From the NCBI GenBank assembly GCA_017355425.1, contig CP070233.1, forward strand, positions 2,893,501-2,957,500: DNA of 64,000 bases, in the 5' to 3' direction. Both the position numbers and the translations under genes were made by a program. This DNA comes from Dolichospermum sp. DET69. Its GTDB lineage: Bacteria; Cyanobacteriota; Cyanobacteriia; Cyanobacteriales; Nostocaceae. Positions 38,716 to 56,157 of the stretch are shown piece after piece (positions within the stretch are counted from its first letter, which is position 1; every line of letters begins with the position of its first letter). The notes under the pieces are model-generated. The model made no database searches. It was not told where the DNA came from and worked only from the letters and a program-made list of their open reading frames with translations.

Positions 38716-40023
38716 ATGCTGAAACCAGGAAAGCCATTAAAACAACGTCCCCAATATGTCGTAGAAACAGAAATTGGAGAAGGAGGTTTTGGTGTTACTT
38801 ATAAAGCTAAACATCAAGAATTGAATTTTCCCGTTGTTATTAAAACTCCTAATAGTCGTTTGTGTAGAGATGCTAATTATCCTAGATTTGTGGAAGGTTT
38901 TCGCAAGGAAGGAAGAACATTAGCTAAAATATCTCAAAATCATCATCCTAATATTGTCAGAATTATAGACTTTTTTGAGGAGGATAATTTACCATGTTTA
39001 GTCATGGACTTTGTTAAGGGTGAAAATTTATATGATTTAATCCAAGATAAGGGCATTTTATTAGAAAAATTTGCTATTGATTATATCAAACAAATTGCTG
39101 ATGCTTTATCTATTTGTCATCAAAATGGAATTATTCACCGGGACGCACATCCTGGCAATATGATATTAAGAGAAAATAGCAATACTGTAATTTTAATAGA
39201 TTTTGGTTTAGCAGGAAATGTGAATAGTCAAAGTATTAACCAAGCTGCTAATCTGGCTTTTGCACCTTGGGAACAAATGCTAGAAACGGAAAAATCAGCA
39301 AGTATTGATGTTTATACTTTAGCTGCTTCTTTGTTTTATTTGGTGACTGGAGATACTCCCACACCTTGTTTAGCAAGGAAGATGTTAAATAATGATTTAA
39401 TAGAACCAAAAAGGATAAATTCAAGGATTAGTGATAGATTAAATAAAGCGATTATTAAAGGTTTAGAATTAGAACCTAAAAACCGTCCGCAAAGTATGAA
39501 GGAATGGGTGGGTTTATTTCCTAGTCCTGATGATGGTAGTCAAGAGGTAGAATTAAAATCAGATGTAGGAATGGATTATAGTAAACTGCGTGAATTACTC
39601 AAAGCAGGAAAATGGAAAGAAGCGGATGAGGAAACAGCACAGGTAATGTTAGAAGTTGCAAAACGGGAAGAAGAATATTGGTTAAGAGTAGAAGATATTG
39701 ATAATTTCCCCTGTGAGGATCTCTGGACTATTGACCAATTGTGGGTAAAATATAGTGATGGTAAATTTGGTTTCTCTGTACAGAAAAAGATTTATCAAAG
39801 TTTAGGTGGAACGAGAGAATATGATAAGAAAATTTTCGATCAGTTCATAGACAAGATAGGATGGAGAAAAGGAGGTATAGAGTTGGACTATGAAGATATT
39901 AATTTTGATATAAAAGCACCAGAAGGACACCTTCCAGGGGAGATGCGGTGGCAAATGGGGGAGTATATTGAAGAAGAGTCTTGGTATGTAGAATGCTCTC
40001 TTCTCTCGCGTCAAGACTTGTAA
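38716..40023 (+). CDS. Ser/Thr protein kinase fused to C-terminal GUN4 domain
   Basis: 435 residues. Kinase (about 14-275): GEGGFG loop 21-26, VIK Lys43, IIHRDAHPGN with Asp143 and DFG Asp162, so all key residues are present (His in place of the HRDxK lysine, common in cyanobacterial kinases). GUN4 (about 287-435): YSKLRELLKAGKWKEADEET, FPCEDLWTIDQLW and GKFGFSVQKKIYQSLGG. GUN4 is a porphyrin-binding regulator of Mg-chelatase; as a kinase partner it may be a ligand sensor. The last residues (LLSRQDL) are out of frame with the usual LFSRvxTCKL ending, which is readable one frame over in the same DNA. Confidence 0.9.
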   Translation: MLKPGKPLKQRPQYVVETEIGEGGFGVTYKAKHQELNFPVVIKTPNSRLCRDANYPRFVEGFRKEGRTLAKISQNHHPNIVRIIDFFEEDNLPCLVMDFVKGENLYDLIQDKGILLEKFAIDYIKQIADALSICHQNGIIHRDAHPGNMILRENSNTVILIDFGLAGNVNSQSINQAANLAFAPWEQMLETEKSASIDVYTLAASLFYLVTGDTPTPCLARKMLNNDLIEPKRINSRISDRLNKAIIKGLELEPKNRPQSMKEWVGLFPSPDDGSQEVELKSDVGMDYSKLRELLKAGKWKEADEETAQVMLEVAKREEEYWLRVEDIDNFPCEDLWTIDQLWVKYSDGKFGFSVQKKIYQSLGGTREYDKKIFDQFIDKIGWRKGGIELDYEDINFDIKAPEGHLPGEMRWQMGEYIEEESWYVECSLLSRQDL

Positions 40024-40057
40024 ATTGTAACATTTAAAGATTACAGAAAATTATTAA

Positions 40058-40583: not shown

Positions 40584-40922
40584 TTATTCTAGTACAGAAT
40601 CTTCATCTTCTAATTCTCCTAATGCGGAAATAATCACAGAAGGTCTATCAGGAAATTCTGCCACAAGTTTTAAATCTCCTCCCATTGCTTTTACATAACT
40701 ACGTAATGTAGAAAGTAAAAGATCCGTCCGTTTTTCTAATCTAGAAACACTATCTTGACGGATTCCTAATAATTCTGCCATAGATTCTTGAGTTAATTTT
40801 CTGGCTTTTCTCATATCTTGAATAGTCATGTTTTCCAGAATTAGTTCTTGGGCGCGGGCTTCAATTTTTGCCCGTCGTTCCGGCGGTAATTGTGACATGA
40901 TATCACTTAATTTTGTCGCCAT
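40584..40922 (-). CDS. XRE/HigA-type antitoxin
   Basis: 112 residues. A helix-turn-helix (RKARKLTQESMAELLGIRQ, SVSRLEKRTD) is centred at about 40-70, with an N-terminal helical extension. It follows the RelE-like toxin by 4 bp, the toxin-first order of HigBA-type systems. It probably binds the toxin and autoregulates the operon. Confidence 0.88.
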   Translation of the reverse strand: MATKLSDIMSQLPPERRAKIEARAQELILENMTIQDMRKARKLTQESMAELLGIRQDSVSRLEKRTDLLLSTLRSYVKAMGGDLKLVAEFPDRPSVIISALGELEDEDSVLE

Positions 40923-40926
40923 ATTT

Positions 40927-41289
40927 TTATTCTCCTTTGTCTTTTAATTCCTGAAGATGGGAGTCAAATCTTTTATCTGCTTTTGTAATTAATTGTTTGT
41001 AAAATCTTTTTTCACTTGTTCCAGCTTTATTACCAGCTACAAGTAATATTGCTTTCTTTTTTGGATCAAAAGCAAAAGCTATTCGCCATACACCATCGTC
41101 CGCATAAAAACGCAGTTCTTTCATATTTTTATGTCGAGAACCTTTAAGTGTATCAGCATGAGGTCTGCGTAGGAGTGGACCGGCGGATTCTAGTAATTTT
41201 GTGTGTGCAAGAAGTTCTTCCTGTACTTCTGTTGTTAGTTCAGAAAATTCAGGTAGAAATTCGTCATGAAATAAAATTTCCCATGTCAT
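40927..41289 (-). CDS. RelE/HigB-like toxin (Gp49 family)
   Basis: 120 residues: WEILFHDEFLPEFSELTTEV, LRRPHADTLKGSRHKNMKEL, ELRFYADDGVWRIAFAFDPK and LVAGNKAGTSEKRFYKQLI. This is the phage-derived Gp49/HigB-like RelE family, ribosome-dependent mRNA interferases. Upstream member of a toxin-antitoxin operon. Confidence 0.9.
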   Translation of the reverse strand: MTWEILFHDEFLPEFSELTTEVQEELLAHTKLLESAGPLLRRPHADTLKGSRHKNMKELRFYADDGVWRIAFAFDPKKKAILLVAGNKAGTSEKRFYKQLITKADKRFDSHLQELKDKGE

Positions 41290-41447: not shown

Positions 41448-41945
41448 ATGCCCAAGCACGACCCCGCAAAATTAAAAAAAGTCGCTATTAGTCTTCCTTT
41501 CGGTATTGGTTCTGCGGAATGGGAAGCTGACACAACAGAACGAAAAGCCGCTTGGTCGTTGTACGTGGAACTTGTGACACGCATTGCTGTCCAGTCCTTA
41601 GAAGTTGACCAAGGGTTAGTGCGGGAAGCATTAAACTCTCTGTATAGTTTATTCGGAACTACCCGCGAAGTTCTTAAAGCTGCTGGACCTGATGTGGGTG
41701 CTTCTAAGAACTCGGTTGGGGGTATTGCTATTGCGGTATTGAATAATGGGTTAAGACCGTTTTTAGCTAAATGGCATCCCGTGTTACAAGCGTGGGAAGC
41801 AAGACGACCTATGGGGGTGAGTCCCAAGGAACATGAAGTGAGTTGGTCTGAGGAAGCAACGTTGCGAAGTGAGTTAGCTACGTTGCGAGGTGGTTTGGAA
41901 GAGTATGCGAAGGCTTTGGCTGTTATTTCAGGTGTAGAGGAGTAA
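41448..41945 (+). CDS. Unknown 165-residue helical protein, partner of TIR-GUN4
   Basis: 165 residues, no signal or membrane segment. Segments ERKAAWSLYVELVTRIAVQS, NSLYSLFGTTREVLKAAGPD and LRPFLAKWHPVLQAWEARRP suggest an all-helical domain; a C-terminal coiled-coil-like run follows (LRSELATLRGGLEEYAKAL). I do not recognise a named family. The TIR-GUN4 gene starts 3 bp after its stop, so they form one operon. Codon use is clearly more G+C-rich than in the neighbours, a sign of transfer. It may be an adaptor or regulator of the TIR protein. Confidence 0.78.
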   Translation: MPKHDPAKLKKVAISLPFGIGSAEWEADTTERKAAWSLYVELVTRIAVQSLEVDQGLVREALNSLYSLFGTTREVLKAAGPDVGASKNSVGGIAIAVLNNGLRPFLAKWHPVLQAWEARRPMGVSPKEHEVSWSEEATLRSELATLRGGLEEYAKALAVISGVEE

Positions 41946-41948
41946 TAA

Positions 41949-42851
41949 ATGGCAATTAAATATGATATATTCCTCAGCCATGCGTCCGAAGATAAAGAGA
42001 CATTTGTTGAAGAATTATGTAACAGACTTAAAGAGGCTGACTATACAGTATGGTATGACAAAAATGAACTCTGGTGGGGAAACCACTTAAAAACAAAAAT
42101 TAAAGAAGGTCTAGATAACTCGCAGTATGGAATTGTGGTAATTAGTAAGCATTACTTTTCTACACACAAAGAATGGACTTTTCAGGAGTTCAATCACATA
42201 TTAACAGATTTAAAGATTCTGCCTATTTTACATCATATAACGATGGAAGATATAAGAATTAACCACCCAGAACAGTATGAAAAAATTAAGAATTGGAAGG
42301 CAATCAGTAGCGACAAAGGAATTGATTATATTATTGAGCAATCACTGAAAGAAATTGGCAACCGCTGGTCTGAAAAGGAAATCAACTACAGCAAACTGCG
42401 TAACCTATTAGCAGCACAGAAATGGAAGGAAGCAGATGAAGAAACTTACGAAGTTATGATTAAAGCTGTGGGTAAAAAGTCAGGTGATTGCTTTACAAGA
42501 GATGAACTATTAAATTTCCCATGCCAAGACCTCCGCACAATTGACCGATTGTGGGTACAATACAGTAAAGGAAGATTTGGCTTCAGCGTCCAAAAGGAAA
42601 TTTATTTGAGTGTCGGTGGAAGGCTTGGTAGGTATGAATCTGAAACCTTTTTGAGATTTTATGAAACTGTGGGCTGGGGAGATGTTATAAAGTATAATAC
42701 ATTGCCAGATGGACACTTACCAATTAAAGTACCAATTGGGGCAAGAGGGAGTGGTGTTGGTGGGAGGGTTGCAATGGTGGAGGGTCCGATGTTTTGGGTT
42801 TGGGTGGGTATCTCTTCTCTCGCATCGAGACTTGTAAAGTGTAACATTTAA
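41949..42851 (+). CDS. TIR-GUN4 fusion protein
   Basis: 300 residues. TIR domain (about 4-135): YDIFLSHASEDK, VWYDKNELWWGNHLKTKIKE, YGIVVISKHYF, and the catalytic-type glutamate Glu80 in the W-T-F-Q-E motif, as in NAD-cleaving TIRs. GUN4 domain (about 145-270): YSKLRNLLAAQKWKEADEET, FPCQDLRTIDRLWVQYSKGR, FGFSVQKEIY. The C-terminus after GHLPIKVPIGARG looks frame-disturbed: the usual LFSRIETCKV ending is present in another frame of the same DNA. I infer a NAD-cleaving effector with a tetrapyrrole-sensor-like module; neither activity is shown by sequence alone. Confidence 0.9.
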   Translation: MAIKYDIFLSHASEDKETFVEELCNRLKEADYTVWYDKNELWWGNHLKTKIKEGLDNSQYGIVVISKHYFSTHKEWTFQEFNHILTDLKILPILHHITMEDIRINHPEQYEKIKNWKAISSDKGIDYIIEQSLKEIGNRWSEKEINYSKLRNLLAAQKWKEADEETYEVMIKAVGKKSGDCFTRDELLNFPCQDLRTIDRLWVQYSKGRFGFSVQKEIYLSVGGRLGRYESETFLRFYETVGWGDVIKYNTLPDGHLPIKVPIGARGSGVGGRVAMVEGPMFWVWVGISSLASRLVKCNI

Positions 42852-43275
42852 AGCTTTCAGAAAATTATTAACTCAGAATCAGGATATCCAGGATTTAAGG
42901 ATTTACAGGATTTTATTTTCTGATGAAAGCTTCCCCAATTCTAACATAATTAATTAGATGAACGAGAAAAATACTCCCTTCGCACACAAAGATAACTGAT
43001 ATTTTTTCTCTGTGTCCTCTGTGGTTCGTTTAAACAAATTAGTAATCTAACAGTAATATCAAGAATAATTGAACCCAGATAAAGATGGAAAATCAAAAAT
43101 CAAAACATGATACTTTCAAACAACATCCTGTAAATCCTAAAATCCTGGACATCCTGATTCAGACAAATTAAAATATTAGTACACCACAAATAAAATCAAA
43201 ATCCCGTAAATCCTTTAATCCTGGATGTCCTGATTCTGACAAATAATAAAATAACAGATTTTGGAAAAATACACT
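42852..43275. repeat. CAGGAT elements in both orientations
   Basis: A sense copy (TCAGAATCAGGATATCCAGG) at 42873-42915, 22 bp after the TIR-GUN4 stop, and inverted copies at 43122-43166 and 43203-43247, the last ending just upstream of the next gene. Between them is another dispersed fragment (CTCTGTGTCCTCTGTGGTTC). No gene seen. Confidence 0.88.
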
Positions 43276-55251: not shown

Positions 55252-56157
55252 ATGATAAATCATTTTATAATTAACAAATTTTTGTTTAGATTGCTTGTTC
55301 TCATCAGCAAACTTTTCTTGATATGGATGTTAGTATATTTTACCATACCTCTAATTATTCTCACACCAGAAGCTATCAATAATCCTATCGGTAATTTTAT
55401 TATGACCTTGGGATTTTTGTTTTTACCATTTTTCCTCATATATTTTTTTGTAGAGGAGGATATGAAAAAAGTTTCTCAGTATATTGCTTTATTCACAAAT
55501 AATCAACTTTATCAAAAAAATATTTCTAAATTTATTGCTTCTATAGCTAAGTATGCGATTCTGATAATAATATGTTTAATTCCCTTCTTATCTTTTTTGT
55601 CCTCATATCAAATTCAAGATTGGATTTATTGGCATCCTCAACATAGACAAGAAAATTATACTAAATTGGGTCAATATTTACAAGCTAAAAACTGGGAAGA
55701 TGCTGACAAAGAAACACAATCATTAATGTTGAAAATCACTAATAGAGAAAATAAGAACTGGTTAAGTACCAGAGCTATAGAAACTTTTCCTTGCGAAGCA
55801 TTACAGAATATAGATAAATTATGGTTAAATGCTAGTCAAGATAGATTTGGATTTAGTATACAAACTGAAATTTGGAAACGTGAAAATAGTGGTCAAATTA
55901 ATTTTTATGATGAAATAGATCATAAATTTCATCAAAAAGTAGGATGGAAACAAGAAAGTATAAATAATACAAAATCTAATTTAAAATTATCCACAGATAC
56001 CCCAATAGGACATTTTCCTAAACCTGTGGGAACATCTTTTGGAAAAGCCTGTGTAGGTAGTTTAGATAGGCTTTGGTTTGGACAATCAATGGGTTGTTAT
56101 CAAAAAATATTTATTCGCATAGATAATTGTCAACCCTTGGGGGGAATTAAAAATTAA
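55252..56157 (+). CDS. Membrane-anchored GUN4-domain protein
   Basis: 301 residues. Three hydrophobic segments at about 12-36, 43-66 and 100-123, then GUN4 from about 135: YTKLGQYLQAKNWEDADKET, FPCEALQNIDKLWLNAS, RFGFSIQTEIW and GHFPKPVGTSFGKA. This is the third GUN4 protein in 17 kb. The start is only 14 bp from the divergent RluA gene, so promoters must overlap coding sequence. Role unknown; it might sense tetrapyrroles at the membrane. Confidence 0.85.
   Translation: MINHFIINKFLFRLLVLISKLFLIWMLVYFTIPLIILTPEAINNPIGNFIMTLGFLFLPFFLIYFFVEEDMKKVSQYIALFTNNQLYQKNISKFIASIAKYAILIIICLIPFLSFLSSYQIQDWIYWHPQHRQENYTKLGQYLQAKNWEDADKETQSLMLKITNRENKNWLSTRAIETFPCEALQNIDKLWLNASQDRFGFSIQTEIWKRENSGQINFYDEIDHKFHQKVGWKQESINNTKSNLKLSTDTPIGHFPKPVGTSFGKACVGSLDRLWFGQSMGCYQKIFIRIDNCQPLGGIKN

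Follow-up and report, generated by a model that had tools for sequence, protein, structure and literature searches.

In a stretch of 64,000 nucleotides (nt) from the chromosome of the cyanobacterium Dolichospermum sp. DET69 (assembly GCA_017355425.1, contig CP070233.1, positions 2,893,501 to 2,957,500; this whole stretch is referred to as the window), two adjacent genes encode a protein of 165 residues, here called P165, and TIR-GUN4, a fusion of a TIR domain to a GUN4 domain. We propose, with a probability of about 0.5, that these genes form a two-gene conflict module, in which the constant P165 would be paired with a TIR enzyme whose arm can be exchanged, the arm being here GUN4 with a diversified recognition tail. 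Alignments indicate that this GUN4 part is a paralogue that lost the LxNxLR motif and that carries in its place a random-like, open tail of varying length followed by a conserved DNA element with stop codons in all three frames. The pattern of the tail looks like a targeted, length-varying diversification of a recognition tail. The features of the locus are as follows:

41448-41945, plus strand: P165, open reading frame of 165 amino acids (aa), with a predicted N-terminal beta hairpin and four-helix bundle
41949-42851, plus strand: TIR-GUN4, open reading frame of 300 aa, assigned by Pfam and by a Foldseek search of its AlphaFold2 (AF2) model, which matched TIR and GUN4 chains
41958-42305, plus strand: TIR domain, residues 4-119, with the Glu80 codon at 42186-42188
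42369-42710, plus strand: GUN4 scaffold, residues 141-254, covering profile positions 2-109 of 141 (Pfam)
42711-42722, plus strand: GHLP codons, the 5' border of the variable segment
42723-42813, plus strand: variable segment, 91 nt, 74% G+T, coding for most of the low-confidence tail
42814-42851, plus strand: 3' element; its TAA codons lie at 42835-42837, 42842-42844 and 42849-42851, and the last of them is used here

Both genes lie on the plus strand with 3 nt between them, and P165 is richer in G+C (47.4%) than TIR-GUN4 (37.8%) and the window (36.9%), as an earlier interpretation made from the letters alone (in the following the sequence-only reading) had described.

P165 is a family tied to TIR genes

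P165 is a real protein family that is tied to TIR genes. The only two TIR_2 matches of the host genome (E 0.001) each directly follow one of its two P165 genes, so that the adjacency is not due to chance. These two P165 genes are 89% identical to each other, the second copy being followed by a TIR-FGE gene (L031:1958-3334). P165 is present in 22/386 cyanobacterial genomes, and a scan of GTDB genomes gave 428 relatives confirmed by tblastn. The neighbourhood counts given here are based on the best 80 of these 428, i.e., on the closest relatives only, which resulted in 79 loci with 83 P165 open reading frames; a TIR neighbour was called at a cut of 40 bits. The loci are species representatives and the counts are not independent, because many of them come from one genus. 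Directly 3' of P165 we found TIR-GUN4 in 29 and another TIR protein in 20 of the 83 cases (49/83 in all), compared to a TIR gene directly after 8/418 other genes of at least 150 aa on the same loci (Fisher p 7e-37). The gap between P165 and the TIR gene is -4 to 33 nt in 38/49 cases. Moreover, a TIR gene on the same strand directly precedes seven of the 83 P165 genes, and 12 others have one elsewhere within 3 kb.

In the opposite direction, a profile search of the 386 genomes identified at least 14 full-span TIR-GUN4 fusions (query start at most 10, query end at least 290), and a comparison of coordinates placed P165 directly 5' in 11 of them with gaps of 1-161 nt, one of these 11 P165 genes being only a remnant. 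As the profile was built from P165-linked proteins alone and at most five candidates were scored per genome, the count of 14 is a minimum and is biased towards linked cases. A further TIR-GUN4-like match with 35% identity (G233:C1) has no P165 beside it. The sequence-only reading had made its claim depend on the partner being conserved beside TIR-GUN4 in other genomes, which is what both counts (29/83 and 11/14) show. A TIR or ThsB_TIR gene adjoins P165 also in Photobacterium and in 3/3 virus contigs, ThsB_TIR lies beside the P165 relative in L124, and Mesorhizobium has, among TIR genes, a fusion of a P165-like part to a patatin. The P165 copies of Ruegeria and Streptomyces are not directly beside a TIR gene.

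The partner could not be placed in the sequence-only reading, and it also had no match in Pfam (at E 1, and thus none to Death-like or EAD adaptor domains), NCBIfam, PADLOC and the PDB sequences, the best E-value of the profile searches being 0.71. Among 17 relatives the best Pfam match was DUF3482 (E 0.004), obtained for one member only. The AF2 model of P165 (predicted local distance difference test (pLDDT) 84.8, predicted template modelling score (pTM) 0.80) consists of a beta hairpin and four long helices, and no specific structural relative stands out for it. By eye, three relatives (L021:1495-2427, L085:5572-6477 and L040:4806-5540) have a hydrophobic N-terminus resembling a signal peptide or an anchor. 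At three of four loci (L109, L107, L099 and L095) a small gene with a similar start (MNKYIEA/MSIYIEALEEFDGQ...GGISNCPDWQ) lies 3' of P165 in place of TIR, and the fourth has apparently a fragment of it.

A constant partner next to an exchanged enzyme and arm

Over 48 P165/TIR pairs, P165 has a median identity of 0.76 and TIR one of 0.36, the rank correlation being -0.07, and in 143 comparisons where P165 is at least 85% identical the median identity of TIR is 0.37. These values indicate that P165 hardly changes while its TIR partner is exchanged; the C-terminal arm is swapped as well. Ten TIR proteins encoded 3' of P165 and without a match to the GUN4 model were scanned with Pfam, and in 8/10 an extra domain was identified: FGE-sulfatase, WD40/pentapeptide, HD-CE with HATPase (two proteins), WD40, dynamin, SAM methyltransferase and, in a further protein, TPR together with an AAA_16 match under its cut-off. 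Only TIR was found in the other two, from Photobacterium (L041) and Calothrix (L039). The Calothrix gene, located on a plasmid (L039:5514-6887), was deposited as GUN4 domain-containing, and Pfam at E 0.001 finds TIR only. GUN4 is one of many interchangeable arms beside TIR.

A small 5' gene at a short distance from its neighbor would also be seen if P165 were the antitoxin or immunity protein of a TIR NADase, made first from a shared operon and inhibiting the enzyme until the arm sets the release of inhibition. The P165 genes without a nearby TIR gene (15/83) would then resemble orphan antitoxins. However, antitoxins usually co-diverge with their toxins, and the identity of P165 does not track that of TIR. 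In addition, the neighbors of P165 span TIR_2 to ThsB_TIR, and the P165-like part fused to patatin fits an adaptor better, so that we regard a toxin-antitoxin pair as rather unlikely.

The TIR-GUN4 protein and the question of tetrapyrrole binding

The assignment of both domains in the sequence-only reading was confirmed by Pfam, all three models being above their cut-offs: TIR_2 (PF13676) matches residues 7-98 with 68 bits (cut-off 28), TIR (PF01582) residues 4-119 with 45.6 bits (cut-off 21.3) and GUN4 (PF05419) residues 141-254 with 112.2 bits (cut-off 29.2). No caspase family is among the Pfam matches, and ThsB_TIR scores 15 bits and is thereby under its cut-off of 21.2. The Glu80 of WTFQE, noted before as a catalytic-type residue, is aligned by phmmer to the glutamate of WTNYE in 7uwg, a TIR chain from Acinetobacter; we take this glutamate to be the catalytic residue there. 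Glu80 is invariant in 28/28 aligned TIR-GUN4 proteins. In the AF2 model of TIR-GUN4 (pLDDT 77.8), Foldseek pairs the GUN4 part with 1y6i and 7e2r; residues 252-255 and, within the tail, 262-283 are below 50, and a helix is modelled at residues 281-297 (block means 62 and 86). Two PADLOC matches were rejected: the PD-T4-6 kinase (132.9 bits) covers only profile positions 247-448 of 450 and Pfam finds no kinase in the protein, and PDC-S66 (122 bits) covers only positions 148-254 of 282, aligned to the TIR part.

The GUN4 domain, which had been described as complete, is not: the match reaches only position 109 of the 141 in the profile, and GHLP is not followed by the LxNxLR stretch. In solved GUN4 proteins and in the canonical GUN4 of the host, LxNxLR follows directly after GHLP (phmmer). 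This motif contains the residue that contacts bilin in Synechocystis GUN4 (Asn211); it is kept in cyanobacterial orthologues with few exceptions, and in a paralogue clade the Asn is kept by no member (PMC10156173; here and below, statements on published work refer to the accessible parts of the cited papers). This clade need not include TIR-GUN4, as the term TIR is absent from the accessible text of that paper. LxNxLR was absent from the TIR-GUN4 of the window and from 29/29 P165-linked TIR-GUN4 proteins; in five of these 29 rows the anchor FG[FY]S was missing and the whole protein was searched. The host genome has 13 GUN4 matches, and in eight further host GUN4 proteins that were examined the motif is kept by the canonical 238-aa GUN4 only and absent in the other seven.

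The sequence-only reading had suggested a NAD-depleting effector controlled by the tetrapyrrole state or another ligand of GUN4, with the small protein as adaptor. Most likely the protein is a TIR effector with a sensor-like arm at its C-terminus, and this part of the suggestion stands. The gating by tetrapyrroles appears doubtful, the LxNxLR evidence bearing on bilins only and not on porphyrins, for which F191 and R211 were described as binding residues in Arabidopsis (PMC8967248). Such a switch would be in agreement with the retained GUN4 scaffold (112 bits), its pairing with 1y6i and 7e2r and the published idea of GUN4 as a sensor (PMC7159879). Against it stand the loss of the bilin motif in the window protein and in all 29 relatives, the lack of the Asn in the paralogue clade, as far as this clade is relevant for TIR-GUN4 (PMC10156173), and a stretch in place of the motif that is itself unconserved. 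Tetrapyrrole control is therefore considered to be quite improbable. The sequence-only reading further knew of no described defence system with GUN4 as a sensor. Fusions of GUN4 to TIR, kinase, caspase and trypsin domains and a role of GUN4 as a sensor of the photosynthesis status are already in print (PMC7159879, citing Davison 2005); thus, judging from this paper, neither the TIR-GUN4 fusion nor the sensor idea is new.

A random-like segment in place of the motif

In 102 genes with GHLP and element, a set that may include the same gene from closely related genomes, the variable segment is 27-201 nt long (median 61), and its length modulo 3 is 0, 1 and 2 in 29, 33 and 40 genes, respectively. 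Its composition is A 0.18, C 0.11, G 0.36 and T 0.35, i.e., G+T 0.72 compared to 0.51 in the gene body. In 99 distinct segments the three codon positions are near-equal in composition, and stops in the other two frames have frequencies of 5.7% and 5.3%, compared to 5.7% expected by composition. The dinucleotides deviate mildly (GG +15%, CG -20%), and the segment is therefore close to random but not exactly so. Over 118 elements, the GUN4 frame is open to the element in 97, contains an in-frame stop in none and is unclassified in 21, compared to about 30/102 open frames expected from composition. This maintenance of an open tail argues that it is translated.

The comparison of close relatives shows that the segment is replaced as a whole. 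Of 94 gene pairs whose bodies share at least 85% identity, and which are not independent, 91 have unrelated segments (identity at most 0.60) and three have identical ones (at least 0.95), without any case between these limits; random segment pairs have a mean identity of 0.446. The length differs in 90/94 and the frame in 63/94 pairs, and over the initial 40 nt of the element the same pairs have a median identity of 0.925 (minimum 0.61). Some pairs can be aligned over 2 kb at 92.8% and yet have segments of 84 and 66 nt, and another match has 92.7% identity in 1404 nt of upstream and 86.9% in 685 nt of downstream sequence. As the flanks match over the kilobase range, these pairs probably represent one locus rather than paralogues; other close pairs are paralogues within one genome.

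Three sources of the segment were considered and rejected. For a captured phage fragment, a search with window positions 42700-42830 gave only 31-base matches in four phage records at E 0.4; for a cassette exchanged between genes, only three gene pairs among the 102 genes share a 24-mer of the segment; and for slippage in G runs as the main source, the mean longest G run is 4.15 compared to 3.97 in shuffles.

The triple-stop 3' element

Three further GUN4 genes of the genome have 3' ends that are 90-91% identical in DNA to window positions 42811-42900 and that are read in different frames. The core of the element (up to 6 mismatches) is present on 57/79 distinct GUN4 gene ends and no core was found on 22; among the 57, of which one (L011) looks like a chance match, the three frames are used 15, 21 and 21 times. 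In 53 aligned copies about 40 nt are conserved, preceded by 45 nt that are unconserved and rich in G and T. The three TAA codons lie at offsets 21, 28 and 35 and are thereby 7 nt apart, and all three frames are stopped within 45 nt by 87/102 elements. Segments with a length modulo 3 of 0 use stop 1 (29/29), those with 1 use stop 3 (29/33) and those with 2 use stop 2 (35/40). The unused codons are kept as well: stop 1 in 30/33 (modulo 1) and 39/40 (modulo 2), stop 2 in 28/29 (modulo 0) and 32/33 (modulo 1), and stop 3 in 25/29 (modulo 0) and 30/40 (modulo 2).

In 10 genomes, chosen for strong GUN4 matches and not at random, the element pattern occurs 34 times and a reversed control pattern not at all. 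By coordinates 33 of the 34 lie just 3' of a GUN4 match and the 34th sits on a deleted GUN4 remnant, on which grounds a mobile repeat was rejected. In the set of 386 genomes the pattern was found in 64 and the reversed control in 17, so that single matches may be due to chance. A known RNA was also rejected, Rfam giving only two snoRNA models far under the gathering score, and as an exact pattern the element is absent from IMG/VR.

GUN4 remnants that retain the 3' element were observed at L186 (internal deletion) and L272 (stops before GHLP). At L265:688-800 and L266:607-720 two elements stand in tandem, 51 and 70 nt apart, with a G/T-rich stretch between the first and the second element in L266; the L266 end reads as if a new end had been placed in front of an old one.

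A second element-bearing gene of the window lies 1.4 kb upstream:

38716-40023, plus strand: kinase-GUN4 gene, with GHLP codons at 39925-39936 and a variable segment of 63 nt at 39937-39999
from 40000, plus strand: core of the kinase-GUN4 3' element, the first TAA being used

The kinase-GUN4 segment (window region 39937-40037) is identical in the genus relative L237, the body being 97.6% identical. A further GUN4 paralogue at window positions 55252-56157 lacks a 3' element and, judged by eye, has hydrophobic stretches at its N-terminus. Behind the TIR-GUN4 element, a short dispersed repeat with about 100 places in the genome, many in evenly spaced arrays, starts at about 42873-42900. Just upstream of P165, a helix-turn-helix gene and a Gp49-family gene adjoin each other on the minus strand (40584-41289) and resemble a toxin-antitoxin pair.

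A tail without function is an explanation that has to be weighed against these data: the GUN4 paralogues would have lost their C terminus, the end would drift, and the element would be a terminator or another RNA or DNA signal. Conservation of the element in every frame class and its restriction to GUN4 gene ends would fit a signal of this kind, as would its retention on the two GUN4 remnants; the tail sequences are unconserved and the AF2 confidence is below 50 at residues 262-283. Drift, however, does not predict early stops in 0/97 classified frames where about 30% open frames are expected, nor an all-or-none replacement without intermediates in 94 pairs, and the G+T content is 0.72 compared to 0.51 in the body. 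We therefore judge a functionless tail to be unlikely.

Proposed mechanism and its weighing

In the proposed conflict module, the GUN4 part would serve as a scaffold that displays a diversified recognition tail at the position where canonical GUN4 has a ligand-contacting motif. The tail would meet a target, perhaps a phage component, and this contact would lead to assembly of the TIR domains and cleavage of NAD+ via Glu80, whereby the cell stops. P165 would act as a constant regulator or assembly adaptor, either keeping the TIR enzyme inactive or relaying its activation. A dedicated process would replace the whole tail in one step. Tentatively, and with somewhat less than even chances, we suggest for this process a machine that is anchored at the GUN4-specific element and that replaces the tail with untemplated, G/T-rich DNA of random length, the offset TAA codons guaranteeing a stop. 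To our knowledge, no recombinase or terminal transferase is known for the GUN4 tail.

A diversified tail is an attractive interpretation because the TIR-FGE paralogue of the host has an end resembling a product of diversity-generating retroelements (DGRs) in the same position, so that both arms would be diversified. The C-terminus of TIR-FGE reads RGGSW...GFRVVCSGAART (L031:1958-3334), similar ends are found at other loci of the host genome, and the pattern is presumably that of a DGR-diversified C-type lectin. A DGR might accordingly also rewrite the GUN4 end. DGR systems with FGE/C-type-lectin targets likewise combine a conserved scaffold with a hypervariable end, FGE occupies the same TIR-X position in the paralogue linked to P165, and the conserved DNA 3' of the GUN4 segment is reminiscent of the DGR homing site, a conserved 3' DNA anchor. 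However, DGRs substitute at adenines within a variable region of fixed length, whereas here the whole segment is replaced and length (90/94 close pairs) and frame (63) change. A BLAST search of the host genome found no second copy of the window segment and no template-like locus, and no typical reverse-transcriptase motif turned up in a crude scan of the loci. A DGR acting on GUN4 is thus very improbable.

Several observations weigh against the proposed conflict module. No TIR gene (40-bit cut) lies within 3 kb of 15/83 P165 genes, one of them at a contig end, and P165 may therefore have another role; 3/14 full-span TIR-GUN4 fusions have no P165. The element is lacking at up to 5 mismatches in 8/29 P165-linked TIR-GUN4 genes, the 10 genomes have 33 elements for 111 GUN4 matches, and since kinase-GUN4 and further GUN4 genes carry the element too, the tail belongs to the GUN4 paralogues rather than to the P165-TIR module. 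Furthermore, neither an enzyme nor a template for the diversification was found by host-genome BLAST and the crude motif scan of the loci, and at the sequence level a tail without any target would look identical.

Relation to known systems

The EACC1-caspase system is a two-gene conflict system with a constant 5' component and a 3' enzyme with a variable domain (PMC7159879). P165-TIR shares the constant 5' part and the enzyme gene with a variable domain, and differs in that its enzyme is TIR with no caspase. The constant component of the EACC1 system has one transmembrane helix; P165 is modelled as a hairpin and four long helices. The TIR-GUN4 and other GUN4 fusions published in the same paper have the same domain fusion, with GUN4 proposed as the sensor arm. 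In the GUN4 literature examined, including the accessible parts of PMC7159879 and PMC10156173, neither the P165 partner nor the LxNxLR loss in TIR-GUN4 nor the randomised tail with its triple stop was found. Thoeris is similar in its TIR enzyme, here with Glu80, and in the ThsB_TIR that adjoins the P165 relative in L124. No ThsA-like partner and no SIR2 or SLOG match were found among the five neighbors scanned with Pfam. In vertebrate V(D)J joining, junctional (N) diversity results from random, length-varying inserts between fixed borders, and the GUN4 segment likewise is a random-like insert of varying length that ignores the frame and lies between fixed borders. It differs in that its frames end in a built-in stop.

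Implications

Neither P165 nor the triple-stop element was found to be described in the literature searched, which covered few subscription papers and no bioRxiv preprints. P165 represents a constant partner family of TIR enzymes that is missing from the profile libraries searched. If the proposed mechanism is true, it would be a bacterial counterpart of junctional diversity, creating new specificities for kinase and TIR effectors. Cyanobacterial TIR and kinase proteins would then carry a recognition tail that is made unlike the products of known retroelement diversification and for which the frame problem has a built-in solution. The expansion of GUN4, with its 13 matches in the host genome, would gain a purpose beyond pigment sensing. 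Whether length-varying junctional diversity exists in bacteria becomes a question that is directly testable at one short gene end.

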